Positions 1 through 61,569 of a stretch of 64,000 bases of DNA are shown one piece after another. A program made the position numbers and the translations under genes. Position 1 is the stretch's first letter. Every line of letters starts with the position of its first letter. The DNA comes from Corythucha ciliata (lineage: Eukaryota > Arthropoda > Insecta > Hemiptera > Tingidae): contig CM075938.1 of NCBI GenBank assembly GCA_038030265.1, positions 3,945,009 to 4,009,008 on the forward strand, in the 5' to 3' direction. Below the pieces are notes generated by a model. The model saw only the letters and a program-made list of their open reading frames with translations, did not search any database and was not told the origin of the DNA.

Positions 1-603
1 CCCAAATATTAGCTAATTTTGAAGGTGTATTCCACCTGGTTTTTTGTTGCATTTCTTGTAGATATTCTAGTCGCCATCTTTTCCAAAATTGTTGCATTGT
101 GTTCTTGATGAATCGCCATTTCGAGGTCAGAGTAGACCGATCGTAAAAATTTGGCTCGGTCGGCAAATTGGTCAACGGACGTTGAACCAAAAAATTGGGC
201 TGGAGTTAAGACCGACAAATCTTTTGGAGAATTCGACATTACAGTCATAGGGCGAGGGTTAAGAACAGCTTCTACTCGAACCGAAATAGTTTGAAAGGTT
301 TCCATTGTTGGAATTTGATTCTTTAGTACCAGCTTAAGTAAACGCTTCATCGATTTGACGGCAGCTTCCCAAAGACCTCCGAAATGAGGTGCGTACGGAG
401 GTATGAAGTGCCATTCGGTCAAATTTTTGGCGGCTTTCATCGAGCAAGCATTTTGATGTTCCGAACTAAGTAGAAGATGTCGTAATTTCTTAATTTCATT
501 CGCGGCTCCAAGAAAATTTCGACCATTGTCACTCCAAACAGCTGACGGATAGCCTCTTCTTGAGACAAAACGTTCGTAGGCGATTAAAAACTTGTCTGTT
601 GAC
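1..603 (-). pseudogene. BEL/Pao integrase, C-terminal half, split by hAT insertion
   Basis: C-terminal half of the integrase region of a BEL/Pao LTR retrotransposon, which would join element cDNA to host DNA. Seen on the minus strand: the second catalytic Asp in SDNGRNFLGA, the PPYAPHFGGLWEAAVKSMKR block carrying the catalytic Glu, the NPRPM motif and the start of the DUF5641-like tail (VLTPAQF). The frame runs off the left edge. It is broken at 596-603 by the hAT element and resumes on the other side of that element at 3931. Without the insertion the two halves join inside the conserved integrase core stretch ending VSDLST. Because the coding sequence is split and the other half is frameshifted, this copy is dead. 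Family assignment is firm; the rest of the element lies outside the window. Confidence 0.9.
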
Positions 604-3600
604 CAGTGGCGGCTCGTATATAAGGGGCACTTTGGGCAGTGCCCCGCCAAAAATCCAGTCGCCAACTATTTAAAATATTTCATCATTTTATACTAATTTT
701 TTGTCATCAGAATTATAATTTGGTACCGAGCTCTTTTTAAATGAGTTTAAAACCCCCTCGAGGATCTTCAAGGTCTATTTTCGCGAATGAAATGAACTGT
801 CGAAGGGAAATTTCACCCTTCCGGGGCACTTTCGCCTTATTTTAAAAAGTGCCCCGTTAAAGAGAAGAAAACGCGCGAACTGCTCATGAAAAGAGGAATT
901 TGATTGGCTCTCGCTGACGTTTTTTCAATGATTCGGGACGGAGCCCCGAAGTGGTGGGAGAGCTTTTCAATGATGAATAGGCTTTTTCGGCCGGCTGCCG
1001 CGCCACCACCCAGCATACAAAAGGGAAAAAGGGATTTGCTTTGTACGGTTATAGCCGGCTCTTTTTCAGTTATTGAGTGATGAGCAAAGTCAACGCGGAC
1101 GCGGCCAGTTACTATAATTCTATAAGTAATAATTGTAGTGCGAAGTGGACGCCGTTTTACGTAAGTGGGTGCTCTTCCACTCTGAATAAGTTTAAGCTGT
1201 TGTCAGTTTGTTAAAAACGTTATCCCGCCAGGTATGTTAAAATCTTTAGTTGCGTGATAAACTCAATAAAATGTTTGATGAGCCGTAAGTTCAAGGACCT
1301 GATTTACGAAGAAAAACTAGATGTCAAAAAACTAGGCCCTCCCAAACCGGAGTTGAACATTGTGCAACGCGTGGCGAAAAATGCGAAATCTAGCTGCAAT
1401 CGCAAATTTAACAAGCAGTGGTAAATTAAAGACTTGGTTGGCGGGTTGCCCGGAAAAAAATGCTTTGTTTTGTTTTGTATGCGTTTTGTATGGTGGCGAT
1501 GAAGCGTGGACTTCGAAAGGAGTCACCGACATCAAACGTTTGAGTGAAAGGACCAAATGCCATGAGATGTCAAAAACTCATGTGGACAATGCCACAGAAT
1601 ATGCACTTTTGGGTCAAGTAAATATAGCCCTGCAATTAGATTCAGCCACCTAAACGTCAAACGCCATAACGAAAGTGTCGACCGCAATAGATACGTTTTG
1701 TCGTTAATAATAGATTGCATAAAATTTTGCGGTGTTTTTGAACTTGCCTTGCGGGGTCACGACGAAACTGTTGGGTCATCGCACAAGGGAGTATTTCTTG
1801 GTTTAGTCGATTTCGCTGCTGAGTTAGACTCTGCATTGAAAGTTCATCTGGAAAAAGCCTCTGTGTTTAAAGGCACTTCCAAAACAATCCAAAATGAACT
1901 TTTAGACGTTTTTACAGAACAGGTGCATGAAGAAATGAGTTGTGCTCCTTTCATTTCAATTCAGGCTGATGATTGCTCGTCCAAATTTCAGCTAGTCACA
2001 ATATTTCGCTACGTTTTGACCGACGGCTCTGTAGTCGAAAGATTTTACCGGTTTTGTCGTCCCACCTCATGCTCAGCAGAGGGAATCTTTGAAACCTTAT
2101 CCAGTCAGTTAGAAAGGAAAAAATGAAAAACTTGTTGCCCAGACATACGACGGGGCATCGGTAACGAGAGGGAAAAATAGAGGGGTAAATTCACTCATTA
2201 AAGCCAAATATCTCAACGAACGTTATCTTCACTGCTACTCCCACCAACTTAACCTGACTATGATTGAAGCCACTTCATCCATTACCGAAGTTCGAATATT
2301 TTTTGCCAATTTGTCGGGGATTTCTTCCTTTTTCAGCCGCTCACCCCTAAGAATGTCAGTCCTTGATAATGCCATCCAGCGTCGTAGGATCCCGAGGCCA
2401 TCCCAAACAAGATGGAATTTTAATGCCAGGCTTGTGCAATCAGTGCACGAATATCGCGATGCACTTATCGAAACGTTCGAGGAAATTTGTGAGAGTGGAA
2501 ATTTTAACTCTATAACCATTAGGGAATCCAGTGGCTTGCTGGCATTCCTCGAAGACGATAGCTTCAATTTCTGGCTTGAGCATTTCAACAAAATTATGCC
2601 ACACGTTGACATACTTTTCGCTCAAATTCAAAAACGTGACACTGACCCAGTCCAAATTCGAAATAATATCGACCATTTCAAACATGAGGTTCAGAAAGTC
2701 GGGGAAAATATTCAGGAACCCCCACCGACTTCCACGAACAAACGTAAAAGAAAATATGATACCCCTTCGAACAAACTTAGTTCAGCGTTAGAAGTTTGCG
2801 ATTTAATTTTGAATCAAGTACAAGATCGCTTTGATTTTACTGGCCATTTGCAAGCATCCAAATTGTTTTATACAGATCTTTTCTTAAATTATTCGAAGCA
2901 GTTTCCTCGATTGAAGTCGGAATTAATAATAATCTATTGTCGATCCGATTTCGTAGCTGCGAATGGAGCTCTCGCTCTATTGAAATTGTTTTTGCACAAC
3001 AATTTAAATGAAGTTTATTCAGAAACAGTAAAACTGCTTCAAGTACTTGTCACTACTCCAATGACCACCGCGGAATCAGAAAGGGCCTTTTCTACTTCAA
3101 AAAGGATCAAGACGTTTTTAAGGTCCACGATTTCACAAAAACGGCTAAATGCTCTTGCTGTTTTATCCATAGAGAGGGATTTCATTAAAAATATCCCTGA
3201 TTTCAACTCGAAAGTCATGGACAAATTCGCTCAACTGAAGAATAGAACAATGGATTTTGTTTACAAATAATTTATTAGTTTGGTTTTGACTTAGTTTTTA
3301 ATTAATTCGTTCTTGGAATTCGTATTTATCGTTATTTGTATTCGTTCTTTCTGTTTATTTGATATTTTTTTTAAATAATTACAACTTGTTTGAATACGTT
3401 CGTATATTTTATATTTTCAACGTTTTTTGGGGCTCTTCTACATTACCTACCCAGGTGGATGGTTGGTTGGCTGGGTAGGGGGGACTTCATTGCACCCATC
3501 TCCTCGTAGTAAGTTCTGGTTCCTGGTTTCCTCAAGTAATATCCGCTAATGCATGATTGTGTATCAATTAAAATTGAAGTAATATTGTTGGTGCTGTGTG

Positions 3601-4900: not shown

Positions 4901-5755
4901 TCTCTAAATATAAACAAAACCTCTATTGGTAACCTCTAAGGCCTTTTCCTAATTTTAGCCATGGCTATTTCCAAAATCTATCCGCTAAACAGCGCTTATG
5001 CCAAGTTTAAACTGCGAATTTCTCCATTTTAGCCGCGCATGAGTGCTTTTTGTCAACTTTAACAGCAAATTAGCGCTTTTCGCCGCAAATTAGCAACTGA
5101 TTAGCGGGGTAATCCCCCCCCACCATAGAGCCACAAATATGCGCTTTTCCCCAACTTTAGCAGCAAAGTAGATTTTGTATCCTGTGAATCAGCGATGTTT
5201 CTTACACTTTCCTCGAGTTGGCGTTTTCCACAATTTTAGCTACAAATTAGCGATTCTTTCTAGCGGTTTACTCAGTATGAGCTGAAAATTACTCAATATT
5301 AGCCGTAAAATTCTCGAAATGTTTACCACAAATTAGCATTTTTTGTTCACCGCAACCATACACTGCGGAATAGCGATTTCTTCTAAGTTTTAGCCGTGAA
5401 TTTGCGAGTTTTTCACTCATAGCCATAAATTAGCGCTTTTTCTCAATTTTAGCCTCAAAGTCTCCCGAGGAAACCGCGAATTAACGTATTTCCAATTTTT
5501 GACGCAAATTTAAATTTGTCCCAATTTTAGCCGTAGATTAGCGTTTTTTCGTAATTTTTGCAGTGCAGTAGCTATTTCTAGCCCGTGTATTAGCGAATTT
5601 TGTTCATTTCGCACTGCAAATCGGCAATCCTTCCATTTTTGACAGTGAATTAGCACTTTTTGTTTCAATTTATTCTAAAAATTAACTTTTCTCTTTATTC
5701 TAGCCAGAATAATTACTGATTTTCCCTATATTAGCTGCAAATTGAGGCCTTCTTC
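4901..5755. repeat. Degenerate short-unit repeat S1 (AATTTTAGCCGCGAATTAGCG type), left segment
   Basis: A series of units of roughly 30-45 bp, each with a T-rich run ending CAATTTTAGCC, then GC or GTGAATT, then AGCG. Units differ from one another by substitutions and small indels. The order of distinctive units matches the copy at 43.3-43.6 and 47.4-48.7 kb, for example AACTTTAGCAGCAAAGTA followed by GCGATGTTTCTTA. It therefore behaves as a fixed interior sequence rather than a freely expanding satellite. The Gypsy element interrupts it at about 5756. Confidence 0.8.
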
Positions 5756-6418
5756 TTCTTCCACCGGCGGCAAGTGACCCCGTCTCAAGTGGAGTTGCCG
5801 CGGGACGCCCGTTTCTACGCTGTGAATCAGGCAAGGATAACGATTCTGAATGTTTCTTGTTATGAATTAATGTATTTGTTGGGTCACAATATTGTACGAG
5901 GGGGAGTCTTACGTCTAAACCACCGGTGGGCTAATCTCTAAGTCGTACGTACTATTTATACGGTCGTGGTTCGCTCTACAGGCCTCCGGTTGCTGGCGAC
6001 GGGACGGAAGAAAAGCAGTCGACCAGGATGCGTCCGTCGACGACGTGGCAGGCGAGCAACAGAGGAAGAGGGGACAAAAAAAGTCTACGGGACATATCTT
6101 ATTAGGTATTATACAAAAGACGGTGTTATACCGTTACAAATTGGTGTCTAAATTATTTACCTTACGACTTTTTATGCTTTATGTCACCGTCTCTCGACAA
6201 GCTCGAAGTCGCTACGGCTCTAATCTACGGCTCTACACAACCTGTCTCGACATGTCCCTTCAGCAAACCTACTATCTACCAATATTTGTCGTTTTGCACA
6301 CGTCATCGGACCCGGTTCTGTTATATTTTAAGTTTTGTAATATTAACGTTACTACGGTTACTCTTTATATAATTTTTTAATATATTATTATTATCCAAAT
6401 AGGATTTGGTTGATCACA
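5756..6418 (-). repeat. Single 3' LTR of the JAMM-Gypsy element
   Basis: Lies directly downstream of the pol stop codon and polypurine tract. On the minus strand it would begin TGTGATCAACC at 6418, right after the purine-rich AAGGGGAAGGG. It is about 660 bp long and has no S1 repeat character. The inner boundary is supported by the polypurine tract and the TG start; the outer boundary near 5756 rests on comparison with S1 at 47.77 kb and is approximate. No second copy exists at the other end. Confidence 0.6.

Positions 6419-6456: not shown

Positions 6457-6504
<48 letters not shown>
6457..6504. repeat. 48-bp T homopolymer directly after the pol stop codon
   Basis: An uninterrupted run of T (A on the coding strand) directly continues the TAA stop of pol. 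It lies between pol and the polypurine tract, which is not where a poly(A) tail would normally be inserted. Its exact length is likely to be uncertain in the assembly. Confidence 0.9.
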
Positions 6505-6511
<7 letters not shown>

Positions 6512-9500
6512 TGAAAAATACGGTTTTATGGAGGACGTGTGATAAATGGAGTGACGGGACGAGTTTGGTAGTGAAATTACGTACGTGCTCTTGCCTATTC
6601 TTTTTGTAATTTTGCCAGGTCCTTGAAAGATGGGCATCAATTTCGCGCTTCGCTTGTGCAGTTTTGAGCTATTGGGGTGGTATCGTACCAAGACCTGCTC
6701 ACCAATCCTATAACTGTGCACACGTTTTCGCTCGTTGGTGGTTTTGAGAGCTTCTTTTTTTTCGCGTTGCAGTTCCACTAGGTAACGGTCCAATTCCTCT
6801 CGAGAAAGTTTAACGTTGGTGTCGTCACAGGCCATAAGTTTTGACCAAGGCTGCTTAGGCGGAGACCCGTACCACGCTTCGTGGGGCGTGCACCTTATGG
6901 CTGAGTGGTAGGTCGTATTCATTGTGAATTCGATCCGATTCAACATCTCGCACCACTTGGATTGTTTAGCGGCCACTGTCACACGCAAGTACGTAACTAG
7001 GTCCCGGTGGACTCTTTCAGCCATGTTGGCATTCGGCCGTTTCAATGGTACCAGGACATGATCCAAGACGTCCTCTTCGACGAATTTTTTCCACGTACGG
7101 GAAGTGAAACATGACCCGTGGTCGGTCAGGATACGATTGGGTTTTCCATGAAGTTTAAAATAAGTCCGCAATTTACTGATAGTTTCCCGAGATGATGTGG
7201 TTTTGACGGGTACGAGTCGAACGAATCGCGTAAGTGAATCGATGATAGTAAGTACGAAACGCATGCCAAATCGGGCAGTTGGCAATGGCCCAAAGTGGTC
7301 AATGGAGAGTAGGTCGAGCTTGCTCTTTGGCAGGATGGCCCCAGAATAATGTTGGAGATTCAGGTTTCCAAATTTACTTAGTTGGCACGTACGGCAGGCC
7401 CGGATAACTCTTTTTATTTTACTTTTGAATTTTTTTGTGACGAACGTTTGCCGCAGGAAGTGATGACATTTCTGCACTCCTGAATGGAGGAGTTCAGTGT
7501 GGGCAAAAAGAATGACGTGATGACAAAGTTCATCCGGCAGATAAATAACATCCCGGTCCTGACACTTCTGGTATACAACACCTCGATGTTCGTTAAAGAT
7601 TTCTGGTCGCTTCTCACGAAAGCGTTGCAACGTTTCGTCACGACTTTGAGCGGCAGGGAGTTTTTTAAGCAGTGAGGTTTGGAAATAAGTGTTCGTTGTT
7701 GTCTCAGCGGCCATAATTTTCAACTCACGATTTTGCGTTTCCGTATTAAACGAAATGGGAGGGTATCGGCTCAGCACGTCAGCGATTTCGTTCGATGAAC
7801 CCTTAATGTATTCGAACGTAAGATTCAGGTTTTGGAGGTAAAGGAACCACCTATTGAGGCGTGGTGAGGGGTACATTACCATGGACATGAATGTTATCGC
7901 TTGATGATCAGTACGAACGATCGTGTGGTGGCCACCTACATATGAAAAGAACTTTTTGCAACAGTTGACGATCGCCAAGATTTCCTTCTCTGTGACGGTG
8001 TAATTCATTTGGGTGGCCGTAAGGCTGCTACTCGTAAAAGCCAGAGGTCTCTTGTTATCGTGATCATCAAGCTGGTAGAGCATACCCGCCGTCGCGTAGC
8101 CGCTTGCATCAGTCTCCATGTAAAATGGACGGTCGTAGTCCGGATAGGCGAGTTCCACGTTGCGAGCCATGATGTCTTTTATCGTTAGGAAGGATGCCTC
8201 GGTTTCTGGCGTCCACTCCCAAGGTTGTTTTTTTCGCGTTAATTTGTAGAGTGGCGCAGCAATGGCTGATAGATTCGGGACGAAGCGTGCATAAAAGTTA
8301 GTGAGGCCCAGAAAGGATTGGAGGGATTTGACGTTTACTGGTCTTGGAAATTCTCTGATTGCCTGGACTTTGAAGGGGTCTTTCAGAATTCCTCTGGTAG
8401 TTAATAAGAATCCCAATACGGGAAGCTGGTCTCGGAAAAAGTTACATTTTCTCAAGTTGAGTGTAATTCCGTTTCGCCGACACATTTCGAAAACCGTTGT
8501 GATGTGCGTCAAATGTTCGTTCGCTGAACGCGAGTATATAACGATGTCGTCTACGTACGATTTGACGTTACGTGTCACCGCAGGTGGGATTAGTGGGCGC
8601 AGGGCTTTTTCAAGCGCAGCGGTTGATGTCTTCAAGCCGAATGGGACCCTCTTGTACTCGTAAACGAGGCCATTGAACCGGAACGCTGTGTATTGTCGGC
8701 TGTCCGGGTGCAGGTACACTTGGTGAAACGACGAGTTGAGATCAACCGTAGAAATGTGGGTGACATTTGCAGCGTCCTTTACTATGTTATCAAATGAGAG
8801 TGGGACGTCTCTTTCGGGAAGGATTCGTGAGTTCAACTTGCGAGCATCAATTAGGGGTCTTAAAGAGCCATCTTTTTTCTTAACAATGAGCAGGGGGTTA
8901 AGGTAAGGGCTGCGGGAGGGTTGAATTATGTCGTTGTCTAGTAGTTTCCTTATTTCTTTGGTGATCTCATGCTCGTCGGCAGCCATGATGGAATACTGAA
9001 AAGCTGCAAAGGGAGTCTGATCGTTAAGGACAATCTTATGCTGGTACCCTCGTATTAGGCCGGGAGACGGACTAAAAATGTCTTTGTATCGGAACAGTAG
9101 ATTCTTGAACTCACGCAAGACGGCGGTCGTGGTGGGTGGTGCGCTATTCACGGCTTGATCAACTATTGCCTCAAAAGGGGCGTCGCGGATGTCTCCATCG
9201 TCCCGTAACTTGAGTGAAGTGGTTGAGACAACTATATTTTCCGAATTTTCCGTTCCGGGAAGGAAGTCGAGTTGTATAGGTTGAGATTCAACGTTTATAG
9301 TTACTCTCCGGTCCTTGAAATTTATTAGGCAGTCCCACTCCTGAAGCCTGTCGACGCCGAAAATCACATCCTGGCTGAGGCGCGGAATAACCAAGAATGA
9401 ACATTTCGTTTCTACATTTTTGATGACTACGGAAGCGAAAATTTGAAATCTTATGTGGTAGGACTTCTTTGAAATTGCCGTCTTCACAGTGGCTCCCCGT

Positions 9501-10393
9501 ACCGGCAAGATTTCGTAATTTCTTTTTCCTTTCAAGTTGACGTCGAAAAAATCCTGGCTTATGGCTGTCACTTGAGAACCTGAGTCAACTAGAGCAAAGG
9601 CTTTGATTCCGTTTATTGCACAAGAGAGTAACGGGCACTGGGGAGTGGGTTGTTGGTCCCTATCGACAAGGTCGGCGTCGTCAATTGAAACGTCACCATC
9701 TTCGAAAATGTGGGCCAGGCACGCGTTGGTAGCGGGATATTGTATAGGAGATACGGTCTTTGTTCCGGTAGTCCTTTGGTCAACTACCTCAAGTTTTAGG
9801 TCAGGGTGAAAAATGGCATGACGAGCGACTTTGAACAGGGGTTTTTGTGTTTCGTGCTGGTGGAATCCCGACAGGGGGCAAGCCCGAACGTCGGACAGTC
9901 CGTCGCTAGTTAATGTGTAGACGGCTCCTTGACCATATTTTGGTGAATACACGACTGCAATAGCTTCTGGGAGGAGTGATTGAATGACGAACGTCGTGTG
10001 CAGGTCAATGCTAGAAAGAAAACACTCCTGGGTAGGGTGCGTGTGAACCCATCCAAGTACCGAAAGACCAGAATGTTCAAGGTAACGAGCAAGTCTACTT
10101 TCATCCAGGGCCTCACATGTATTAGAAGTTCCCTTTTGAGGAGGAAAAAATAGTGACGTCACGTGGAATGAGTCAGCATCTGCTTTGCGACCTAAAATGA
10201 ACGCACATGTCTCTACATTTTCAGAGGTTGCAAGGGAGGACCGCTCCAGGAATATTTTACCGAAGTCACGAGGAATGAATATCGTGTGTAAGCCGTGTCG
10301 TTTGTTTGAGAGGCGGGTGATTAATGAGGGGAGAGTTGAAGTGGCCTCTACTTTCTCAGTTAGTGGTGCTCTTCCCTCGGCAAGTAGTTTTTT
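6503..10393 (-). CDS. pol: Pol polyprotein: JAMM deubiquitinase - protease - RT - RNase H - integrase
   Basis: Uninterrupted frame of about 1,300 codons, entered by -1 frameshift from gag at 10387-10393; it has no useful ATG of its own. Order: AMSH-type JAMM domain (about 10297-9785); aspartic protease with ALVDSGSQVT (about 9587); reverse transcriptase with YVDD at 8543-8557; RNase H starting METDASG (about 8120); integrase zinc finger (HTELLHSG, CRTCQ, about 7505-7385); integrase core with SIDHFGPL, ILTDHGS and NMAERVHRD supplying D, D and E; then a C-terminal GPGKITKR region of GPY/F type. All active-site residues seen are canonical. The intact frame of about 3.9 kb implies recent function, although gag is damaged and the 5' LTR is missing. 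Gypsy assignment is firm; the JAMM domain is the unusual addition. Confidence 0.93.
9785..10297 (-). other. AMSH/STAMBP-like JAMM deubiquitinase domain within Pol
   Basis: Domain similar to the catalytic part of AMSH (STAM-binding protein), a zinc metalloprotease that cleaves lysine-63-linked ubiquitin chains at endosomes. Seen: IPRDF start; catalytic Glu in NVETCAFILG (codon 10211-10213); JAMM core WVHTHPTQECFLSSIDLHT, fitting H-x-H-x7-S-x2-D (His 10043-10045 and 10037-10039, Ser 10013-10015, Asp 10004-10006); and the second, structural zinc set typical of AMSH enzymes, a His just after the core (9998-10000), Cys (9878-9880) and the HxH of GFHQH (9854-9862). The LPE and SPK blocks between them also match the family. 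The MIT and STAM-binding parts of host AMSH are absent, so only the catalytic domain was captured. Activity and linkage specificity are inferred from these residues. Confidence 0.9.
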
Positions 10394-11624
10394 GAAACAT
10401 TAGGGGACGGCGAGCGATCGTTATAGCGTCGATTATTCGTGTTGTCAGATTCGGGTTGCGTTTCTGTCGTAATCTCCGCGATTTGAGGAGACCGCTGGAA
10501 GCTGTTTCTTTGTCGATCGAAGGAGTTTGTACTTTGGCGCCGATTACTGTCACGTGGTTGAGGCCGCCACTGGCTTTGTTGTACAGCATGGGATTTGTTC
10601 CGCGATTGGGGCGAATAGGTTTTTCGAAATTGGGGTACATCTGCGGAAAATCTTGACGTAGCTTGGTTTGTAGCGAAACTGTTTTCCACGACTTGGTCTG
10701 GATTCTTTTTTCCTTTTTGAGACATGACGCGTTCCAAGTATTCAAGGAACGTTCCAATTTTCGTGATCTCTGTTTGTTTTATGGGTCCATCGAAGTGTGT
10801 GGCGATCACTTGAACGAGTTCGTGTTCTGGAATCTCCAGATTAGCCTGCTGTACCCTCGAGACAATGTTGGAGACGTAGATTTGGGGGTTGTACAGCGAG
10901 CTTTCGGCGAAAGATCCCGAATATAAGAGCTTATTCAAATACATCTTATACTTGTTGCCCAGGAATGCTTAGGTGAATTTTGTACGGAATGATGCAAAGT
11001 CGGTGATTGGTTGGTTCATGAGAAACCAAATTCTTGCCTTCCCCTCCAAAAAGGGTTTCACCCGTATTGTAAAGGGGAGGGACGTCAGGTCCCAATGACG
11101 CGATACCACCTCTAATTGATTCAGAAAATCGTACGGGCAAGATCTTTCAAAATTCGAAAATTTAAGATCACCCTGTGCAGAGATTCCAGAGAGGTGATCA
11201 GTTAGAGCGGACGTCAAACTTATTAGTGAGGCGCCCTCAGGAGACGAGGCTTGGTGACGCACGCCGACCCGTTCACTAAGTTCTTCAAATTCAATTTTGT
11301 GTCGGCCCAAGTCCGAATTTAAATCTTTTAAGTTGTCAGCCATAAGTTCGCTAGATCCGCGAGCTCTTTCTTCCTCACCTGGTCACGTTTTTTGAAATGG
11401 TTGTCCAGCTCATCGCGCAGGATACCAAGCTCCGTCCTACACTCAGTTACTGTGGCAGGTGCCACCTCGTCCAACGCCTCTTGGAGTTTCGCTTGCGATT
11501 CGGCTAAAGCATCAACCTTGTTGATTATTGTATTTCGAGCTTTATTCTCGGACACGCGATAGTCCCGGAAAGATTTTACTAGGGAGGACAACTCTTTTTC
11601 CAGGGAAGACACTCGTTGAGCCAA
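10360..11624 (-). pseudogene. gag: Gag of the JAMM-Gypsy element, one stop and one frame change
   Basis: Structural protein region that would assemble particles and recruit the RNA. Three collinear segments: 11624-11328, a charged, coiled-coil-like N-terminal part; 11343-10969, capsid-like with FSNFERSCPYDFLNQLEVVSRHW typical of Gypsy Gag; and 10944-10360, with capsid C-terminal features (MYLNKLLYS, VSNIV) and an Arg/Ser/Gln-rich tail in place of a CCHC zinc knuckle. The second and third segments share a frame and are separated by a single TAA at 10969-10971, where a CAA codon would fit. The first segment is in a different frame and overlaps the second by 16 nt, so it may be a frameshift or a separate short ORF. 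The last segment ends inside pol, past the slippery site. Confidence 0.75.
10387..10393 (-). promoter_or_regulatory. -1 ribosomal frameshift slippery heptamer A_AAA_AAC
   Basis: On the coding strand the gag frame reads TCA AAA AAC TAC, giving A_AAA_AAC in the phase needed for simultaneous slippage. The -1 frame after it is the JAMM-pol frame, and gag terminates about 25 nt further on (TAA, complement of 10360-10362). The pol frame is closed by a TAA two codons upstream of the heptamer, so the overlap is short and frameshifting is the obvious route. A downstream stimulatory structure was not worked out. Confidence 0.85.
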
Positions 11625-11676
11625 ACTCGAAAATGAAGATGATTCATCATGGATTGTACTAATTGGCGGGTTCTTT

Positions 11677-12960
11677 TACATTTTGGCACCGCATTAGTAA
11701 TTTTTTTCAATTTTAATTATTTGCAGAATAGGGCTTCATCTCAGTTCTAGCCGTGAATCAGTGTTTTTTCTTTTACTTATAACCATGAATTTGCCGTTTA
11801 CCTCAATTTTAGCCACAAAGTTGTCGTCAGAAGGTGGAATTAGAAATTCCAACACACTTTATCCGCGATTATTTTCCTCAATTTTAGCCGTAAATTCGCG
11901 TTTTTTTCAACTTTAGCTGCTTTGAAGCGTTTCTAATCTGTGAATTTGCGAATTACCTTAATTTTTCAGCCACGAATTCGTGATTTCCTCAAATTTTAGC
12001 CGTGAATAACACTTTTTCCCAATTTGAGCTGAAAACGAGAGTTTTCAGCTATTTATGACAGGCTAATTAGAGTGAATTTTTCAATATTAGCTGGTTTTTT
12101 TTTTTACACTTCAGTCCCACGTTGGCATTTTTCCTTCAATTTTTGCTATGGATTAGCGTTTATTGTTTAGTTTTAGCCTCGAACAGAAGCTACGCATTTG
12201 CGTTTTGTCAATTTTTCAAGGTTTAGTGACTTCGCCCTCTCTTCGGTATACAAAATAACGGCCAACGAAAATTTTAAAAATCTTTTTTATAACGACAATG
12301 AAAAATTGGGAAAATACGAACTCTCGATCAAACTGACTTATGTTGTTTTTTTAACATAATATTTGTTATTTTTTATAATAAAAATTGAGGTTTGTTAGCC
12401 GTTGGCACGCTACAACTTTAACCAATTTTGGCCACGGGTTAGCGCTTTTAATCAATGTTAGCAGGGATTCTTTCGTTTGTATTGGCGAATTTTCTCCATT
12501 TTAGCCACGATATGGCGGTTTCCTCATTTTCAGCTGCAGTTTAGCCATTTTTTAGCAGCCAATTAGCACTTTTTTCGCAGTTTGAGTTGAAAATTAGTGT
12601 TTTTCTTAAAGTTGGCCCCGCTAATTAATATTTTTGTCTATTCTAGCCGCGTAGTTTTTTGTAGGTTTTAGCCCGCGTGAGCAAATTTTTCTACGAATTA
12701 GCGCTGTTTCTCAGTTTGAGCCTCGATTCTTTCAGAAGCTACACAGATTTTCGTTTTCTCAATTTCAGCCGCGAATTATTGATTTTTCTTCATTTCAGCT
12801 GTGAAATAGCGTTTTCTGATAATTTTGCAGCGAATTAGCACATTATATATTCTATTTTTTTTTTTATTAATAGGCGATTTTTCGCCATTTGAGTTGTGAA
12901 TTTGCCATTTTGGTCCAGTTTAAACTCGAATTAGCTATGTTTTTCACAATAATTGCCACG
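11677..12960. repeat. Degenerate repeat S1, right segment
   Basis: Continuation of the repeat interrupted by the Gypsy element. It begins CATTTTGGCACCGCATTAG, and a nearly parallel order of units occurs at 47.79 kb onward (accgcattag, then AGTTCTAGCC, then ACTTATAACC, then TTAGCCACAAAGTTG). No coding sequence. Confidence 0.8.
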
Positions 12961-15114: not shown

Positions 15115-15151
<37 letters not shown>

Positions 15152-16593: not shown

Positions 16594-17096
16594 ATGAAAC
16601 CTTGTAGTTCCTTTATCCGTCTGTATGATGTTCATGCGCGGCTCTGGGGAACGAGCAAGTCCTTCAGTTCCTCGTGCGCCAAAATCGGGGGGTCAAACGT
16701 GGGACAGTGGAAGGTACTGTCCAGGAGTGTGCCTCAAGGCACGCCGGCTTTGATGATGGCCCTGCTCATCGATGAAGAGTCGGCGAAGATCCTGGAAAGG
16801 AATAATGTTGTCCACAACAGGTTCGGCAAGGGGACCATGCGGCCTAAGGCTCGGAAGGGGGAAGGATCATCCTCCGGCCCCCGGAAGCAGCCGATGGAGG
16901 TGGATCAGGTAGCCGCTGCTGTGCGGGGTACCACCCCCTCACCAAGGCAGGAAGTGCTATCTGCGGGAACAACAGTTGGCGCCACGGCATCCGGGCAGTC
17001 AACGCAGGTAGCTCCCTCATACGCTAGGCCATCTACTAGCAAGGCGGGGGAGAGAGGTGATAGTGTCGGACCAGAGGGGGATGAAAAAGAGTCCTG
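16594..17096 (+). pseudogene. LINE ORF1 fragment (R1/LOA-like, DUF4780-type)
   Basis: C-terminal part of the ORF1 nucleic-acid-binding protein of an R1/LOA-like LINE. The stretch GQWKVLSRS, then MALLIDEESAKILERNN, parallels the complete ORF1 at 57.9-58.2 kb (GWQLISS, then LVLGIGKDTLKWLKDN). It is followed by a low-complexity Ser/Pro/Gly-rich tail ending at the stop near 17096. The N-terminal part is absent. It lies just upstream of the matching ORF2 and has the same arrangement as the 57-61 kb copy. Confidence 0.65.
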
Positions 17097-17204
17097 AAGG
17101 TGGCAGGTCGGGCACGGAAACCCCACCCTACTCCGAATGCTGAAGAAGCAATCGCGGAGTGGGGTACATAAGGGGAATAAGTGACCGCTACGGGGTTGCC
17201 CTTC

Positions 17205-19375
17205 CTCCAGGTGAATCTGCATCGTGCAGCAGCGGCATCGGCCGTCTTGAGCAGGGTGTTCACTGGGGGAAGCTATGACGTCGCCATGGTTCAGGAGCCA
17301 TGGGGCATGGGAGAGGCGGGTCAAGGGCCTTTCTGCGACAGCAGGTAAGCTGGTTTACTGTAGGGATGAGAAGCGGCCGCGAACTGCGCTGCTTCCAAGT
17401 CCCGCAGTGAAATTTTTAACTATGCCAGAATTTCTGTGCAGAGATTTGACAGCAGTCAACCTGGAAGCCAAGGACGAGGACCGGACCCCGAGGTGTGTGG
17501 TAGCTTCCGCGTACTTCCCAGGGGACGCTGAGGTGACGCCGCCGGAGGAGCTTCAGCGTTTGGTCCTGTACTGCAGCGCGAGGAACCTGCAGCTGATTGT
17601 GGGTTGTGATGCGAATGCTCACCATACCCTCTGGGGAAGTGCAGATGTCAACGCCAGGGGTGAGTCACTCTTTCAATTTTTGATGACGCATGACCTGGTG
17701 GTGTTAAATGAGGGCTCGATCCCTACTTTCGTGACAAGTGCGAGGAGTGAGGTCCTGGATGTTACTCTGACCAGCCAGTTTTTGGCCAATAGTGTCAGAG
17801 ATTGGAAAGTCATGTCAGAAACATCAATGTCTGACCATAGGCTGATTTCGTTTGAGGTCGAGTTTCCTAGGGTTAGAAGTACAGCGTACCGGAATCCAAA
17901 AACGCGGATTGGGAGGTCTTTAAGGGACATCTTGAACAGGAATTGTCTGAGATGGACCTTGACATTCAGTGCCAAGCCGACCTCGATGGGGCGGTGGAGG
18001 CAATCAATTCAGCGGTCCTCAGTGCGTATGAGGAAAGCTGTCCTGTTAAGGTGAAGAAGGGGAACAGGGAAGTCCCTTGGTGGAACAATGAGCTGGAGAT
18101 GCTCAGAAGAGAAACGAGGAGGCTTTACTATAGGGCCAGATCACGTGGGGAGAGGGAGGCTTATAGGCACTCCCTCACAGAGTATAACAAGGCCCTTAGG
18201 AAAGCAATGCGGGCCACGTGGAGGACCTTCTGTGAGGGGATGGAGAATGTGTCCGTTATGGGCAGACTGCAGTGGGTCCTGTCCAAAGAGAGCCCGGGCC
18301 AAATTGGTCTAATAAAAAAGGCAGATGGGGTGCGTACCGAGACCGCTAAAGAGACCCTGGAGATCCTTCTGCGTAGTCATTTCCCTGATTCTAGGGATGC
18401 AGGGGCCTCAGATGTTCAGAGCGAAGTGGTGGCTGACTGCCAGCCAGCAAATAATGCAATATGGAGCGCATCGGGGAAATTGTTTACGCCTGCGAAAATT
18501 AAATGGGCTATCGGCTCATTTAAACCCCATACAAACCCCCTGGGCCGGACGGGATATTCCCGGTCATGCTACAGCGTGGCCTGGAGGTCCTGGAGCCACG
18601 CCTCAGAAGGATATTTAGGGCGAGTTATGCATTATCAGATATACCGAAGGCATGGAGGGAGGTCAGGGTTGTGTTCATTCCTAAGTCGGGAGCAAACTCC
18701 TCGGCCCAGGCAAAGGCGTACTGAGACCCATAAGCCTCATGTCCTTCCTCCTTAAAACAATGGAAAAGGTAATTGGCCTGGATATCAAGGACGGTTGCCG
18801 TAAAATTAAACCAATTCAGGGGGGCAGCATGCCTATCAGGCGGGCAAGTCTCCTGAGACCGCCCTAAACGAACTGGTGGGTAAGGTTGAAAAATCTCTGG
18901 AGGCGAAAGAAACTGCGCTGGGCTGCTTCCTGGACATAGGTGGTGCTTTTGATAACACCGCCTGTGAATCTATGGAGGCTGCAGTAAGGAGCAGAGGTGT
19001 TGATCCATCTTCAGTGAAATGGATCAAGGGGATGCTGGAATGCCGCGTCGTGACTTCGGAGCTGGGAGGGGAGACTGTTTCCGTGTTGCCCTCAAGGTGG
19101 TGTCCCCAGGGGGGTGTGCTCTCTCCTTTGCTCTGGTTGCTCGTGGTGGATGAGCTTCTCGCTATCCTAAAGGAGCAGGGTTATGAGGTAGTTGGTTACG
19201 CGGATGACCTTGCGATTCTAGTTAGGGGCAAATTTGATGATACCATATCCAGTAGGATGCAGGGTGCCCTTAACATAGTGCAGCGATAGTGCAGCAGGCA
19301 TGGTCTCAGGGTTAACCCTGAGAAGACTACCCTTGTTGCGTTTACCAAGCGGTTTGGGCACGGCTTGCATTAGAT
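17205..19375 (+). pseudogene. LINE ORF2 fragment (endonuclease and partial RT), R1/LOA-like
   Basis: Endonuclease and reverse transcriptase of an R1/LOA-like LINE, decayed. Seen: VNLHRAAAASAVL and YDVAMVQEPWG (endonuclease start, about 17210-17300), SAYFPGD, GCDANAHHTLWGS, a LDVTLTS block and SDHRLISFEV (apurinic-type endonuclease motifs, to about 17860), PWWNNELEMLRRETRR linker, then RT motifs LDIGGAFDNT, CPQGGVLSPLLW and GYADDLAILV (about 18930-19220). Several frameshifts and stops separate these blocks. The sequence stops soon after LRVNPEKTTLVAFTKRFG near 19370, so the thumb, RNase H and 3' UTR are missing. The copy is broken at both ends. Confidence 0.85.
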
Positions 19376-33869: not shown

Positions 33870-35080
33870 CCCAGACGCCTTTCTCCTGAACAACTGAAAA
33901 CAGCCAAGTCAGAATTCGACCTCATGCTTCGCAAAGGTATTATCCGCCGCTCTGACAGCCCTGCAGCAAGCTGACGCCCTTGCGGTGATTATCGCGCCTT
34001 AAGCGCCCGAACAATCCCCGTGCGCCACATACATGATTTTAATCACCAGCTCCGTGGATGCTCCGTCTTCTCCTTTATCGATCTTGTCAAGGCGTATACT
34101 CAAAGCCCAGTCAATCCATCCGACATCCCAAATACCGCCATCACGACGCCTTTCGGACTTTTCGAATTCCCTTTCATGAGTTTTGGCCTCCGAAATGCTG
34201 GCCAGACGTTCCAACAATTCATCGATGAGGTCGTCGACGACCTCGACTTTTGTTTCCCCTACGTAGACGACATTTTAGTATACTCCACCAAAGCAGACAC
34301 TCATCTCGCTCATCTCCGCGCCGTATTCGACTGCCTAGCGAGCCACGGCCTCCTCGTCAACACCAACAAAAGTGTCTTCGGTGTCAACACGATAAATTTT
34401 CTCGGATACGAAGTATCAGCTAAAGGTATTCGTCCACCTCCTGAACGCGTCGAAGCTCTCTTAAACTTCGCCAAGTTACTAACAGCCGAAGGTCTCCGCC
34501 GTTTTCTCGGTATCATGAATTTTTACCGCAGCTTTCTTCCCTCAGCCGCACAATTTCAACCACCTCTCCATTCCGCTTTAACTGGTCTTCAAGGAAAAAA
34601 CAAAATAGCTTGGACCCCAACGTTGGAGGCAGCATTTCAATCGTGCAAAGATCACCTTGCACAGGCCACCCTTCTCACTCACCCTGACTCAACAGCTCCT
34701 CTCGCTCTTTTCACTGACGCATCACAAATTGCGGTAGGAGCATCTCTTCAACAAAGTGTAGCTGATCAACGGAAACCTCTAGCTTTCTTCTCTCAGAAAC
34801 TTACCCCTCGCCAGCGTTTTATAGAGAACTCCACGCTGTGTATGCTTCAATTCAACATTTTCGCCACATCCTCGAACCACGTCCATTTACAGTTTTCACT
34901 GACCTCAAGCCTCTGATTTACGCTTTCCGACAACACAGAGACAAACTTCCTCCTATTCAAATCAATCAGCTGTCATTCATTTCCCAATTTACAACCGAAA
35001 TCCAACACGTCAGTGGTTCCGCTAACGTTGTGGCCGACGCTCTATCTCGGATCAATTCAGTTAACACCGATCCTCTCACA
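33870..35080 (+). pseudogene. Gypsy reverse transcriptase and RNase H
   Basis: RT: EQLKTAKSEFDLMLRKGIIR (about 33890), a short deletion and a stop in place of the PKKDGS block, then [43 protein letters not shown] and [10 protein letters not shown] (about 34260), [12 protein letters not shown]. RNase [19 protein letters not shown] (about 34710), frameshift, [20 protein letters not shown] and SGSANVVADALSR (about 35030). The catalytic YVDD is kept but the gene is interrupted. Confidence 0.87.
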
Positions 35081-35099
35081 CCGATTGACCTCAACACTC

Positions 35100-36230
35100 T
35101 TATACAAGAGCAAGAAAAAGACGTTGAACTCCGTGATCTTGAGAAAATGGTCAATAACTCATCACTTCGTCTCAAGCGTGTCAAAATACCAGAATCGAAC
35201 GCAACTCTTGTTTGTGACACGTCAACCCCTAACCTTCGACCCCTCCCATTTCGTCCCCTTGTCACTCCGACGCCGTCTGTTCAACTCTCTTCACAACTTG
35301 AGCCACCCAGGCGTCAAGTCTACCACTCGCCTCGTCACCGAACGTTACGTTTGGCCCCGAACTCGTCAAAACTGTCGATCGTGGACGCAATCCTGCATTC
35401 CGTGTCAACGCGCCAAAATCTCTCGACACGTACGTTCTCCTACAGGTTTCTCCCCCCCCCCCACCACATACCGCACGCTTTGAACACATCCATGTCGACA
35501 TAATTGGCCCTCTACCTCATGCAGGCCCGTACCACTACTGCCTGACAGTTGTCGACAGATTCACAAGATGGCCTGAGGTATGGCCAGTGGAAGATGCAAC
35601 TGTCAACAAAGTCGCTGAAGGGCTTCTTAATTGCTGGTTTTCTCGCTTTGGCTCACCTCTTCGAATAACAACCTATCAAGGACGACAATTTGAATCCGAC
35701 CTTTTCCACTCACTCGGATCAGTTTTTGGTGCTCACCGTCTACGCTCAACTCCTTACCACCCAAGCTCTGACGGTTTAGTCGAGCGCTTCCACCGACACC
35801 TCAAGGCTGCCATCATGTGCCACCCTTCTATGTCATGGCTACAAGCACTTCCCCTCGGCCTCCGAAGCATAATTCGTGAAGATCACACAACTTCACCAGC
35901 AGAACTTGTTTACGGTCAACCCCTTCGACTTCCCAGTGAGCTGTTGCAACTCCGCACTCCTACCCATCCTGAAGATCCCTCGAATTTCGTCCTAAAACTA
36001 CGTCGGCAGATGGAGGATCTTTGTCCAGTCCCCGCGTCAAACCAATCGTCAAAAAAACCATTTATTTTTGTAGACCTCGATACCTGTTCTCATGCATTCC
36101 TCCGCGCTGACCATACTCGCCGTAGTCTGCAACCACCCTACATGGGACCGTATCCCATCGTGAAGAGAAGCTCAAAAATCTTCACCCTCCTCGTTAACAA
36201 CAGTAGCACGTAACCGTCAACATCGACCGA
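35100..36230 (+). pseudogene. Gypsy integrase with catalytic Asp to Tyr change
   Basis: Zinc-binding region in shifted frames (CIPCQRAK near 35400), HVDIIGPLP with the first Asp near 35500, YHYCLTVVDRFTRWPEVWPV, and HPSSDGLVERFHR with the Glu near 35780. The second catalytic Asp, normally TDQGRQFES, reads TYQGRQFES (about 35670; TAT where GAT is expected). Even apart from the frameshifts the integrase would be inactive. The C-terminal part ends YMGPYPIVKRSSKIFTL near 36185. Confidence 0.85.
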
Positions 36231-43619: not shown

Positions 43620-46600
43620 AGTTAAAATTTGGCCCAGCGGGGAAAACCAAACCGACGTATAAGATATGACGCCTATTGCGTCGACGTAATCACGGGAAAC
43701 CTTCCTTCCCTTTCACTAAAGGAAACCAACTGGGACCACATTCTTGATTTAGACTTGGCGGACCCGACTTTCGGTAAATCTCAACCCGTAGATGTATTGT
43801 TGGGAGCAGACATCTTGAATCAGCTGATTCGGCCGCGATACAGGAGTGGGTCTCCCGCTACCCCAATCGCCGTGCAAACAACCCTTGGTTGGATTTTATT
43901 CGGCCCAACAGGCAGAAAAAACGCCTCCCTCTGTGCATTGTCTACAGTTGAAGCAGATGTTCAGACCATCTTATGTCTCTCGTTGGATCAGATGGTTCAA
44001 TCGTTAGGCGTTAGAGAACGTCCCGGATAAGGTGAAATTTGTTTCTCCTGAAGATCAATACTGTGACGAACTTTTTGAGTCTACGCATCAGCGAGAGGAA
44101 AACGGTCGCTATTCGGTGCCTTTGTTGTTCAAAAGGGGTGAGCCGGAATTAAGAGAGTCCAAAAGTAGAGCGATACGTCGATTGGGTGCATTGGAACGCC
44201 GGTTTGACTCTGATTCAGCCTTCAAAAGCCTTTATAACACCGCTATGGAGCAGCATTTCAGCAGCAGCTTCAGGCAGACGGAGTCATGCGTCGAGTGCCC
44301 TCAGAAGAAGCAAGTTATTCGGGTTATTACCTTCCGCATCACGCAATGACAAAGTCCAATCCGTCGGAAGGTTTACGCATAGTTTTTGATGCATCCGCAC
44401 GCACAGATAATGGCCGCAGCCTTAACGACTGCCTCGCCCAACATTCGCGTTCCTAGATCGATTCAACGGCAAAAGGAAACCCCTACGTTTCGAATTCATG
44501 GTTTTGCTGATGCTTCCCTCAAGGCTTATGGATGCGTTGTTTACCTGGTGACTATAAGGCAAGACGCTGCAGAGTCTGCATCTACAATTTTGGTGGCAAA
44601 AACGAAACTCCCGCCCACAAAACGAAAAGTAACATTGCCTCGATTGGAGTTGCTGGCAGCTTGCCTTTTAGCCAGTGCTCTTAAATAGTGCCAATTTTAA
44701 GTCGCCACTTGTCGATTCTCGACGTAAATTGTTGGACTGACTCTTCGGTGGCTTTACAGTGGATTCGCTCGTCACCAGACCGCTGGAAAATGTTTGTAGC
44801 GAATAGAGTCGATTTCATTCAAGAAAATACAAAAAAGGAGTGGTGGAGACACGTCCCAACTCTGGACAACCCCGCTGATCTCGCCTCAATAGGGCTCTCG
44901 CCTCGACAACTCAGCGAACGCGGCGATTGGTTTAGAGGTCCGCGTTGGCTCACCGACCCTTCCGAGGACTGGCCTCAAAGTAATGTCAAGCTACTGGAAG
45001 ATTTAGATCAATCAGATTTGGAAGAGAAACCTCACGTTCCGAGTATTTCATCGGTGACTATAAATCGGTGGTATAAATCCTTTGAGCTCTCTCCTGGATC
45101 GAACGTCCTCACTCCTCAAGCTACAAAGGGTAACCGCGTACTGTTTCCGCGTGTGTACCCCAAAGTCGAAAAGATACTTCGGACCACTGCGTACACCTGA
45201 ATTGCAGAGGAGCCTATCATACTGGATCAAATATACTCAAAAGACGGAGTTTCAAGATGTAATGACTCTTCTGAATAGCGGGAATCAGTTACCAAAAGCA
45301 TTAGCCAGGCTGTCTCCTTTCATTGACGACGCTGGGATCATTCGGGTGGGTGGACGGCTAAAAGCATCAGGGCTGAACAGCGACGAGAAACACCCTATCC
45401 TATCCTACTGCCCAGGAAGGCAGTGCTCTCAAAAATGATAGTCAATTTTTACCACAAAGAATTCGAACATTTGACAATTAATTCCTTGTACTCGGTCTTG
45501 TCAAGTAAATTTTGGATAATTTCAGCCCGTCAATTAATCCGTTCGGAAATATTCAGATGTATCACTTGTTTCAGAAATCGGCCACCGGCCAACAACCCAC
45601 TTATGGGAGACCTACCAGAGGTTAGAGTCAATCAAATCAGACCTTTTTCCTCAGTTGGCATTAATTTCGCGGGGCCAATGACAATTAAATCATCAAAATT
45701 AAGGAAGGCGCCCCAACAAAAGGCCTACATCTCAGTTTTCGTCTGCATGGCAACACGTGCTGTTCACCTTGAAGCCGTGTCAGACCTATCGACCGATGCA
45801 TTCCTCGCGGCCTTGAATCGTTTTGTCTATAGAAGGGGTCTACCATCCGACATTTATTCTGACAACGGTAGGAACTTTGTTCGGAGCCGACAGGGAGCTT
45901 AAAAAATTCGTGTCAGTGACACTTCCTTCGGATGCGGTAGCTTCCATCGCCTCCACTCGTGGGATCAGATGGCACTTCTCCCCTCCACAGGCTCCACATT
46001 TTGGAGGATTATGGGAGGCAGCCGTTAAATCTATGAAGACGTCGATGAAAAAAATCACTGGGAGCCAAATACTCACATTCGAAGAATTAACCACTTTGTT
46101 GGTCAGGATCGAAGGATGCATGAACTCTAGACCAATTACGCCGCTAAACAGCGACCCAAACGACTTCTCCGTGCTCACTCCGGCACATTTCTTAATTTTT
46201 GAACCAATCCTGTCTTTGCCGGAGAAAGACGCTCAGCAGACCATTAATATCGGTAATCTGAAGCGTTGGAAGCTCTTATTACAAATGCAACAAAGGTTTT
46301 GGTACCGTTGGCACCATGAATATCTCCACACGTTACAGAATCGACCTAAATGGATAAAAAAAAAACGGTGCCCCTTTCCGTCGGAGCGATGGTTATAGTG
46401 CGGGAAGATGACACACCACCTCTGTCATGGAAGATCGGCTGAATTTCTGAGATTTTTACCGGCACCGACGGGCAAGTAAGAGTAGGCAATGTTAAGATCG
46501 CAACAACGGAGAATGGCCGTGTAGTAATTAAAGAGTATAAGAGACCAGCAGTCAAGCTCGTCCCCCTACCAACTCAGCAATAATTGCTGAAGCTACGGAA
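43620..46600 (+). pseudogene. BEL/Pao polyprotein remnant, RT core deleted
   Basis: Plus strand. Protease end (VDVLLGADILNQLI, then TTLGWILFGPTG, about 43790-43910), the post-protease block (ESKSRAIRRLGALERRF near 44160), the first RT block (GLRIVFDASARTDNGRSLND near 44370), then an abrupt passage to the post-RT region (FRIHGFADASLKAYGCVVYL near 44490; LPRLELLAACLLA). Next come the RNase H-like WTDSSVALQWIRSS (about 44735), VGGRLKASGL, integrase zinc region (CITCFRNRPP near 45570), INFAGP, ATRAVHLEAVSDLST, SDNGRNF, a one-base frameshift, HFGGLWEAAVKSMK and the DUF5641-like tail. The RT catalytic core is missing by internal deletion. The integrase again has Asn at the first catalytic position. 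Confidence 0.88.
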
Positions 46601-51130: not shown

Positions 51131-52333
51131 TTTGAAATTTTAGCAAGTGGATATTGTGGATGAAGAGTGTCATGAACGAACTAGACCAAAATGGGTGAAA
51201 TTAGATCAAAATTACGTTCAGGACAAAAACCTTAAAGTGGCTCAAGGTACAGCACCTTACCCTACTGTTGAAAGAATGCCAGGACGTATTTATTTAGCAT
51301 TTATTTTATCATTCATAGGTATCACAGCCTCACAAAACTGTGAGTCCTTACAGAAGGACGTTAGGAGAATACGCTGCAATTGCATCAGAATGTGTTTTGA
51401 TATGTTTACGCACTCTTGTTGTTTTTTATTCTTGTATGGCTCGTTATGATAACGTTGTGTGAATATTTTGTAGGCGCCGGCTCACTCTCAATGAGCTAGT
51501 CGATTTTTTGGAAACAGTCGATGAAAATGAAATCCCAGCCGCCGGAATAGATGTGGCAATGATGCCTCCATCAAATGCAACGGAGGATGTTACTGACGAC
51601 GATTCCGGTGGTGAGAAAGATCCCGTGGTTGACAATTTGCCAGCGAGTCAATTAACAAGTGAGGCCGAAGTCAGCGGTTCCGTATTAGTTTCGCTGATCG
51701 GTCAACACGTCAATGATTCATGCCGAGATGAACCATCCTCTCCTGCACCCCCTCCAAAAAAGAAACTCAAAGCCGCAACAAAAAAAAGTCGAAAGCTTGA
51801 TCAACTAGTGGCGTTCAATTGGTTCAACACTGAACTGCCGACTAGCAACGTGGAGTGGCCGCTCAAATTATCATGTGGAGAAGAGCTAAAAACTCCTTTG
51901 GAATTTTTTAAAAATTTTTTTGACCTAGCGGTTATGAAGCTTATCCTAACTTATACGAATCAATATGCGGCCAAAAAAAATCGTATGGGTGACTGTTCTG
52001 AAGAAGAGATGATGGCGTTTCTTGGAGTTCTTCCTCTAAGTGGCTATGTATGCTACCCAAGGAGAGCTATGTACTGGCAGAAAACTCCGGATAGTCAAAA
52101 TGCGCTAGTCTCCAGCGCCATATCAAGAGATCGATTCGATTTCATCATGGCAAATTTACATGTATGTGATAACGACAAACTAGATAAGTCCGACAGATTT
52201 GCCAAAATCCGGCCATTACTTTCCATGTTGAACGAACGATTTCAAGACCACCTACCCCACGAGAGAAATCATTCAGTGGACGAGTCAATGGTTCCGTATT
52301 TTGGAAAGCACGGGTGCAAGCAATTTATCCGAG

Positions 52334-52538
52334 GTATATAGCCACGTTAATTATTTTCACCCAATCATGGGCGTAGTTGAGTCAGCAGCTTTCAATATAT
52401 TTTTTTAGCTACTTTCATTGCAAAAATTTGTTTCCAGTCACGTGTTCCATGACCCAGTACCGAAACTTCTGGCTCCACTATGCTCATCGTATAACGCATG
52501 TTCAATCATACATGTGGATAATGTATCTTACATTGCAG
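52334..52538 (+). other. Intron 1 of the piggyBac transposase gene
   Basis: Donor GAG|GTATATA, acceptor ACATTGCAG|GC, 205 bp. Joins within a glycine codon and restores the family motif FIRGKPIRYGYKFW. Confidence 0.85.
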
Positions 52539-56700: not shown

Positions 56701-57080
56701 ATTCCCCTATCGGGCGCGTCCCTCGGGTGGCGGATGAGGGATCCCTCAGCGTGGACGGTGCGAGCCGCCCAGGCTGAGGGGTGGTCCGGAATTAAATACG
56801 GACCCGTGGACCAATCAAGGGTAAGGAGGCGTCCTGAGACCGGGACGAAAGATGGTGTGGCCTACCAGAACCTCTCCAGCTATTCGAGCGTTCCTAGTCC
56901 TGAAATCGCTCGTATTAACCTTTCCCCCTTCCTTTTCATTCCCTCAAGGCTACGGTGTGCGGTCCGTGCCTAAGGCCTGCGTGGCGCAGAGGGTAAAGTG
57001 CGCCTTAAACGGACTCCCAGGGTACCGGCCGACCCCCTGGTGTATTTAGGCTTACCACGGCATGCGGGGCTCTGCCGGCG

Positions 57081-61558: not shown

Positions 61559-61569
61559 TTTCGCTCAAG
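61551..61569. repeat. Perfect 7-bp inverted repeat at the LINE-LINE junction
   Basis: CTTGAGC, TTTTC, GCTCAAG, exactly where the plus-strand LINE frame loses homology and the minus-strand LINE begins. It might reflect template switching or foldback during insertion. Confidence 0.6.

Follow-up and report, generated by a model that had tools for sequence, protein, structure and literature searches.

In the genome of the hemipteran insect Corythucha ciliata, a group of Ty3/Gypsy long terminal repeat (LTR) retrotransposons carries an AMSH-type JAMM metalloisopeptidase domain at the start of Pol. The copy at the centre of this analysis lies in a 64,000-nucleotide stretch, here called the window (contig CM075938.1 of assembly GCA_038030265.1, positions 3,945,009 to 4,009,008). 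An earlier reading, made from the letters of the window alone (the sequence-only reading), had placed a Gypsy retrotransposon with a built-in AMSH-type deubiquitinase (DUB) at 9785-10393 without stating a strand. The feature is located there, and it is encoded on the minus strand; the plus strand across this interval contains many stops. The core of that reading, an AMSH-type JAMM domain built into a Gypsy Pol, is supported by our results. We give even chances to the broader proposal that these elements form a clade of LTR retrotransposons with its own JAMM DUB in Gag-Pol, carried in the particle as a counter-defence against ubiquitin-based restriction.

The pol frame extends from 10399 to 6503 on the minus strand and comprises 1298 stop-free codons in the open reading frame list. 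Pfam analysis identified in it, in order, JAB, retropepsin, RVT_1, RNase H, an integrase zinc finger, rve and an SH3-like tail, confirming the uninterrupted run into protease, reverse transcriptase (RT), RNase H and integrase that had been described. The JAMM (JAB/MPN+) domain occupies Pol residues 36-205 (9785-10294, minus strand), with the Pfam JAB match at residues 57-145 (E 1.3e-11). A phmmer search of PDB sequences placed AMSH enzymes first (STAMBP 3rzu, E 2.8e-34; AMSH-LP 2znr, E 4.7e-34), followed at a distance by the other JAMM proteins RPN11 (about 1e-10) and CSN5 (about 1e-6). The similarity to AMSH spans Pol residues 35-203, approximately 169 residues, where the sequence-only reading had estimated 170 and had expected just such JAB/MPN and AMSH-like matches. 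The JAMM motif is complete, with E63 (in NVETC) and H119-x-H121-x7-S129-x2-D132, and the ligands of a second zinc site that had been picked out by eye are all present (H134, C174, H180 and H182). This second site (His, Cys, His, His) is special to AMSH-type enzymes. An AlphaFold2 model of the domain had a mean predicted local distance difference test (pLDDT) score of 83.4, with residues 1-32 below 50, and matched AMSH-LP bound to lysine-63 (K63)-linked diubiquitin (2znv) with a template modelling (TM) score of 0.93 on the target and a root-mean-square deviation of 1.5 Å. Foldseek ranks 1-24 were all AMSH, AMSH-LP or Sst2. Chance resemblance to AMSH is excluded.

AMSH/STAMBP and AMSH-LP (STAMBPL1) thus share with the element domain the JAMM motif, the second zinc site and the fold. 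The element domain differs from them in being part of a Gag-Pol polyprotein and in having no N-terminal USP8_dimer region (PF08969), for which Pfam gave no match in the Pol or gag frames. The pol frame begins just upstream of the catalytic domain, and the portion of AMSH present is the catalytic part only. By its sequence features the domain is classed as AMSH-type, yet not as an AMSH orthologue, given the missing N-terminal USP8_dimer/MIT region. It is 38% identical to the AMSH protein of Brachionus and 44% identical to that of Ornithodoros, the two animal matches that bear the AMSH name. AMSH and AMSH-LP are described as cleaving K63-linked chains without partners (PMC9313428), and a JAMM domain should therefore be portable. 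We consider it likely that the element domain is an active DUB, and by analogy with AMSH it probably prefers K63-linked chains.

The genome containing the window comprises 400.9 Mb in 57 contigs. A JAMM query yielded 48 matches on several of its chromosomes, five of them second pieces of split domains, leaving about 43 places. Twenty of these loci were retrieved at 8-10 kb and the remainder as shorter pieces. The sequence-only reading would have been undermined by a junction confined to the window copy; JAMM instead adjoins the protease in 19 of the 20 longer loci. RT lies on the strand of JAMM in 18 of them (partial in L011, and in L028 only about 4 kb further), and all five Pol domains including JAMM were found in 13, some in pieces. 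The loci retrieved in short pieces mostly show the same arrangement, a few being short fragments. Overall, 12 divergent element families have JAMM ahead of the protease, with pairwise identities of 0.32-0.56 for JAMM and 0.48-0.82 for RT, and Pfam also detected JAB in the five other families tested. In five copies of one family, both gag (569-570 codons) and pol (1348 codons) are open. In the window family, three copies have an open 1298-codon pol and an identical JAMM protein. L009 is a complete copy of 8064 bp, with LTRs 99.85% identical and the target-site duplication (TSD) GAGC, and the window copy is 99.27% identical to it over 5577 aligned columns.

LTR pairs were 99.2-100% identical in the seven copies measured, and perfect 4-bp TSDs flanked all eight sister copies tested, each with a TG..CA LTR pair. 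The LTR pair of L012 is at the edge of the retrieved stretch and was left out of this count; no LTR pair was seen in the other retrieved loci. Within this genome, the predicted recurrence of the fusion in many copies with TSDs is therefore borne out, and the clade of JAMM elements is probably still mobile. The distance from the pol stop to the 3' LTR was 94-206 bp in five of seven copies and 634-636 bp in the other two. This short interval leaves no room after pol for the usual env gene, and the layout is not that of an errantivirus or enveloped retrovirus. With the protease, RT, RNase H and integrase order, the LTRs and the 4-bp TSDs, the element has the features of Ty3/Gypsy (Metaviridae) that were tested. 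Its closest Ty3/Gypsy relatives among the matches listed (P0036-P0050) were 31-36% identical over 87-99% of Pol residues 206-900; they differ in being 1013-1145 residues long and in having no JAB annotation. The sequence TGGTGGCCCA directly follows the 5' LTR in L009, L013, L014, L016, L018, L023 and L027, which represent three families, and is likely a shared tRNA primer-binding site.

At the gag/pol overlap of the window copy is the heptamer A AAA AAC (10387-10393, minus strand), a candidate -1 ribosomal frameshift site that would make JAMM the first domain of Pol. The same heptamer ends gag and opens pol by a -1 shift, 5' of JAMM, in 19 loci of nine families; the scan covered 45 loci, many too short to include the junction, and the other three families gave no row. 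We infer that -1 frameshifting occurs at this junction, and JAMM, as the first domain after the frameshift, would therefore be built into Gag-Pol and packaged. RNA folding after the slippery site is a point on the other side: z ranged from -3.26 to +0.37 across the nine families, and the predicted stems clearly beat shuffles (z <= -1.9) in only four of them. In the JAMM-less sister loci L056-L058, gag and pol join alike in the translations, with protease similarity beginning about 27-38 residues later. A G-patch occupies the slot of JAMM in the related Gypsy Pol proteins P0041 and P0046 (in P0049 only below the Pfam cut-off), and a dUTPase is annotated on the RT relative P0064. Accessory domains may be accommodated at the beginning of Pol.

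We examined the retention of the active site in the 34 loci with complete data, setting aside eight incomplete loci, counting near-identical copies singly and reading some domains across two frames. All nine catalytic, zinc and Ser positions were intact in 29 of these loci, and Glu63 was kept in all 34; general loss of the metal ligands from other copies, which would have told against the sequence-only reading, was not observed. At least one copy of 11 of the 12 families has the full ligand set. The nine positions are all among the 22 columns that are invariant in ten families (chance 3e-9). Between families, the nonsynonymous proportion (pN) was below the synonymous proportion (pS) in JAMM for all 66 pairs (means 0.42 vs 0.77; for RT 0.30 and 0.83), a comparison that does not amount to a dN/dS, with pS saturated and the pairs non-independent. 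That so many families retain the active site suggests that the domain serves the elements in escaping the ubiquitin-based control of the cell.

Several observations weigh against this constraint. A ligand has been lost in five of the 34 loci (L017, L018, L025, L043 and L047), one of which, L017, is a one-copy family and the exception among the 12, and the L029 family is without the Phe beside the second zinc site. JAMM diverges faster than RT (mean family identity 0.42 vs 0.56). Changes within families are few; in JAMM, L019 differs from its relatives by 9-11 nonsynonymous and 1-2 synonymous changes, and w was 0.85 to 0.98 for L023-L025, L025-L027 and L028-L035. These within-family counts, too small to test, are as expected for decaying copies and are no proof of constraint. 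L018 (C1:2885700-2895600) is full-length, with two identical LTRs and a TSD, yet has lost a catalytic zinc ligand. A parent with a functional enzyme may have mobilised it, or it may have mutated soon after insertion, or it may not have needed the enzyme.

The distribution of JAMM among related elements was investigated by an RT survey, in which 150 of 4893 candidates were scored and 58 were used (at least 222 residues and at least 41% identity to the window RT, partial matches being left out). JAMM was present within 2.5 kb upstream of 26 of the 29 full-length RTs whose identity reached 50%, and of none of the 29 at 41-46%. Of the remaining three, L053 retains the C-terminal end of a JAMM beside other sequence, and in L054 and L055 protease comes after gag. 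Upstream of the partial RT match L059, no JAMM, protease or gag match was found. An RT tree united the 12 JAMM families in a single clade (100/100), apart from 54 relatives taken from the protein collection, which include proteins named Ty3-G Gag-Pol and K02A2.6-like, the tree being drawn without Copia, BEL or retroviral RT. When five JAMM-less lineages of the same genome were included, one change sufficed. In a JAMM tree with 32 other proteins, from which P0003, P0034 and P0035 were left out, 10 of the 12 element domains formed one clade (99/96). A single clade of all 12 was not rejected by the approximately unbiased (AU) test (p-AU 0.608), and the log-likelihood was 2.5 higher when it was constrained. 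The sister pairs L020-L023, L029-L041 and L030-L031 were common to both trees. Less favourable to a single gain, no JAMM was recognisable in L054 and L055, which are related lineages in the same genome; support for the JAMM families plus the relic L053 against the JAMM-less lineages of the genome was just 60/57; L030 and L031 fell outside the main element clade in the JAMM tree; and the position of L017 differed between the two trees. The RT trees fit a single gain of JAMM, weakly supported within this genome.

A tick STAMBP query matched the genome 46 times, always through its catalytic part and always at retrieved loci (L009-L051). Most of these loci have protease, RT, other pol or gag alongside; L048 and L051 have only JAMM similarity, to the element families, and L036 has gag by eye only. 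No separate host AMSH gene was seen among the 46 matches, in an exon-wise search that can miss short exons. A genome search for USP8_dimer gave no matches, and 14 control genomes were silent too, so this is not evidence of absence. Searches for a JAMM-Pol fusion elsewhere gave three matches in proteins of 714-2271 amino acids and 32 in proteins of 231-735 amino acids (31 with PF01398), none with a retroelement domain annotated, and PF01398 was annotated on none of the best 120 of 252 Pol relatives. Viral contigs gave 5 and 41 pattern matches, none confirmed. The best 50 matches in a viral structure library were remote only, mostly to phage JAB proteins (TMq <= 0.47), with no JAMM-Pol fusion. 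Absence from these collections is weak evidence, their coverage of animal transposon proteins being uncertain. Among the matches listed in the open-licence PMC literature, none named a JAMM/AMSH or other DUB domain in a retrotransposon. P0035, a protein of 359 amino acids in ENA, consists of an AMSH-like JAMM fragment (JAB E 0.0014, below the cut-off) followed by K/E/R-rich repeats, and is possibly another mobile-element or host fusion.

We propose that an envelope-less Ty3/Gypsy clade acquired the catalytic domain of AMSH/STAMBP, in the simplest case a single time, that the domain was placed after the gag-pol frameshift site and ahead of the protease, and that its active site has been preserved since. 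The enzyme would be made solely as part of a Gag-JAMM-protease-RT-RNase H-integrase polyprotein, so that its amount would track that of the polymerase and it would be enclosed in the virus-like particle. There, and where particles assemble, it would strip ubiquitin in cis from Gag and Gag-Pol, by analogy from K63-linked chains, and the replication complex would be spared ubiquitin-dependent degradation or sequestration. Taken as a whole, a JAMM isopeptidase borne on Gag-Pol and deubiquitinating the element's own particle proteins is the explanation we favour, with slightly better than even confidence; taken separately, the odds that it acts on proteins of the element and not on host signalling seem to us balanced. 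Related systems offer points of comparison. For the Gypsy-derived PEG10, Gag-Pol and not Gag is reported to accumulate on loss of UBQLN2, and a subunit of the SCF complex to limit Ty3 transposition by a mechanism given as unknown (PMC10076021). The DUB of tymoviruses is described as stabilising their own polymerase (PMC8123002). A point against our proposal is that PMC10076021 leaves undetermined whether PEG10 degradation needs ubiquitination.

The main rival is an active DUB acting in trans on the host, damping K63-linked ubiquitin signalling in immunity or stress, or DNA-repair signalling during integration. We regard this as unlikely, though it deserves more weight than any other alternative. 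Many viral DUBs target host signalling proteins, according to a table in PMC8123002; OTU and Ulp1 domains of transposases have been proposed to act on repair factors (PMC2836005); and the JAMM domain precedes the protease and may be cleaved free. However, the level expected of a frameshift product and packaging in the particle, as predicted from the slippery site in 19 loci, favour local action, and Pfam found no other targeting domain in Pol.

It is improbable that the domain instead steers particle trafficking or release through the endosomal sorting complexes required for transport (ESCRT) or an endosomal route, as AMSH does for receptors. AMSH is indeed an ESCRT-associated enzyme (PMC9313428), but its N-terminal USP8_dimer region was not taken, so a role docked at ESCRT is less likely than one in the particle. 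The little space for env between pol and the 3' LTR gives no evidence of a budding stage either.

Slightly less probable again is a non-catalytic role, with the domain retained only to bind ubiquitin or other proteins, which the five loci with a lost ligand would fit. MPN- members of the fold are inactive. Such members, without the JAMM motif, are described in PMC9313428. However, binding alone would require neither the universal retention of Glu63 nor the full ligand sets of 11 families. An accidental single-copy chimera of a host pseudogene or exon with a Gypsy element, or an assembly artefact, would account only for the damaged gag of the window copy and its lack of a 5' end, and is ruled out for practical purposes by 48 matches on several chromosomes, 12 families, a conserved junction, LTRs and TSDs.

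Several known systems share some features with these elements. Orchid Gypsy elements with an AlkB m6A demethylase, as presented in PMC9289625, are likewise a case in which a host-type enzyme was acquired by a Gypsy lineage and became fixed there, and its activity was demonstrated in vitro; they differ in the enzyme, its location in an additional open reading frame, the plant host and their 25-kb length. OTU and Ulp1 domains in Ginger1 and Mutator DNA transposons, and OTU in Helitrons, are ubiquitin/SUMO-type proteases fused to mobile-element enzymes (PMC2836005, PMC6431247), but these are cysteine proteases of DNA transposons and not JAMM enzymes in an LTR Gag-Pol. The tymovirus PRO/DUB is a DUB of a replicating element that protects its polymerase, in this case a non-JAMM enzyme of an RNA virus (PMC8123002). 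The LTR elements of bdelloid rotifers have also acquired accessory enzymes (DEDDy, GDSL and other open reading frames), in a separate ORF3, and the text of PMC5408684 makes no mention of ubiquitin, JAB, OTU or AMSH. The 2021 review PMC8123002 states that no retrovirus-encoded DUB has been reported. Accessory domains in Gypsy elements and OTU/Ulp1 in DNA transposons are thus already known, and JAMM in an LTR Gag-Pol appears to be new as far as searches go; the sequence-only reading knew of no described case, and none was among the literature or database matches listed.

If the proposal is correct, this would be the first case of an LTR retroelement encoding a DUB and of a JAMM domain fused to a reverse transcriptase, within the reach of our searches, in a clade that radiated into a dozen families within one genome. 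If the enzyme is active, ubiquitination would be a real selective barrier for animal retrotransposons, acting at the stage of Gag-Pol or the particle, and whether the ubiquitin system restricts transposition becomes directly testable. The 12 families also supply a set of divergent small AMSH-type enzymes suited to structure-function studies.

The remaining features of the window copy are all on the minus strand. Downstream of JAMM, pol encodes a retroviral-type aspartyl protease (residues 252-371, 9287-9646; Pfam RVP_2, gag-asp_proteas and others, E 8e-6 to 5e-3), RT (RVT_1, residues 506-664, 8408-8884, E 3e-27), RNase H (residues 729-857, 7829-8215; RT_RNaseH / RT_RNaseH_2) and an integrase with an H2C2 zinc finger, rve core and SH3_Tf2-1-like tail (residues 955-1294, 6518-7537). 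The gag remnant (10360-11675) is broken and has no 5' end; its open frames (10360-10968, 10969-11382 and 11328-11675) are separated by an in-frame stop and a frame change, and it resembles the gag of other families from about 11394. The 5' part of the element is missing and only the 3' LTR is retained (5743-6418, 676 bp, TG...CA), with the length and ends of the L009 LTR pair. The window copy is an incomplete element, though its pol frame is open throughout. A run of 48 A (6457-6504) starts in the pol stop codon, with a purine tract between it and the LTR. The idea of a processed retrocopy, which arose from this run, was set aside: L009 has the same purine tract, then an LTR, a paired 5' LTR and a TSD.

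A second pure A/T run, of 36 nucleotides, is located at 15116-15151. Degenerate satellite-like repeats lie at both sides of the element (5364-5737 and 11722-12839) and recur at about 47.4-48.5 kb, the longer matches being approximately 66-77% alike. The window appears transposon-dense, and its R1-like LINE translations point to an arthropod. Translations judged by eye indicated a BEL-like element at 9-665 (minus strand) and, on the plus strand, a hAT-like element (1566-3270), an R1-like LINE (16594-18755), a second Gypsy element (33975-36213), another BEL-like element (45327-46398), a pogo-like element (48709-49926), a piggyBac-like element (51463-52341) and another R1-like LINE (57009-61589).
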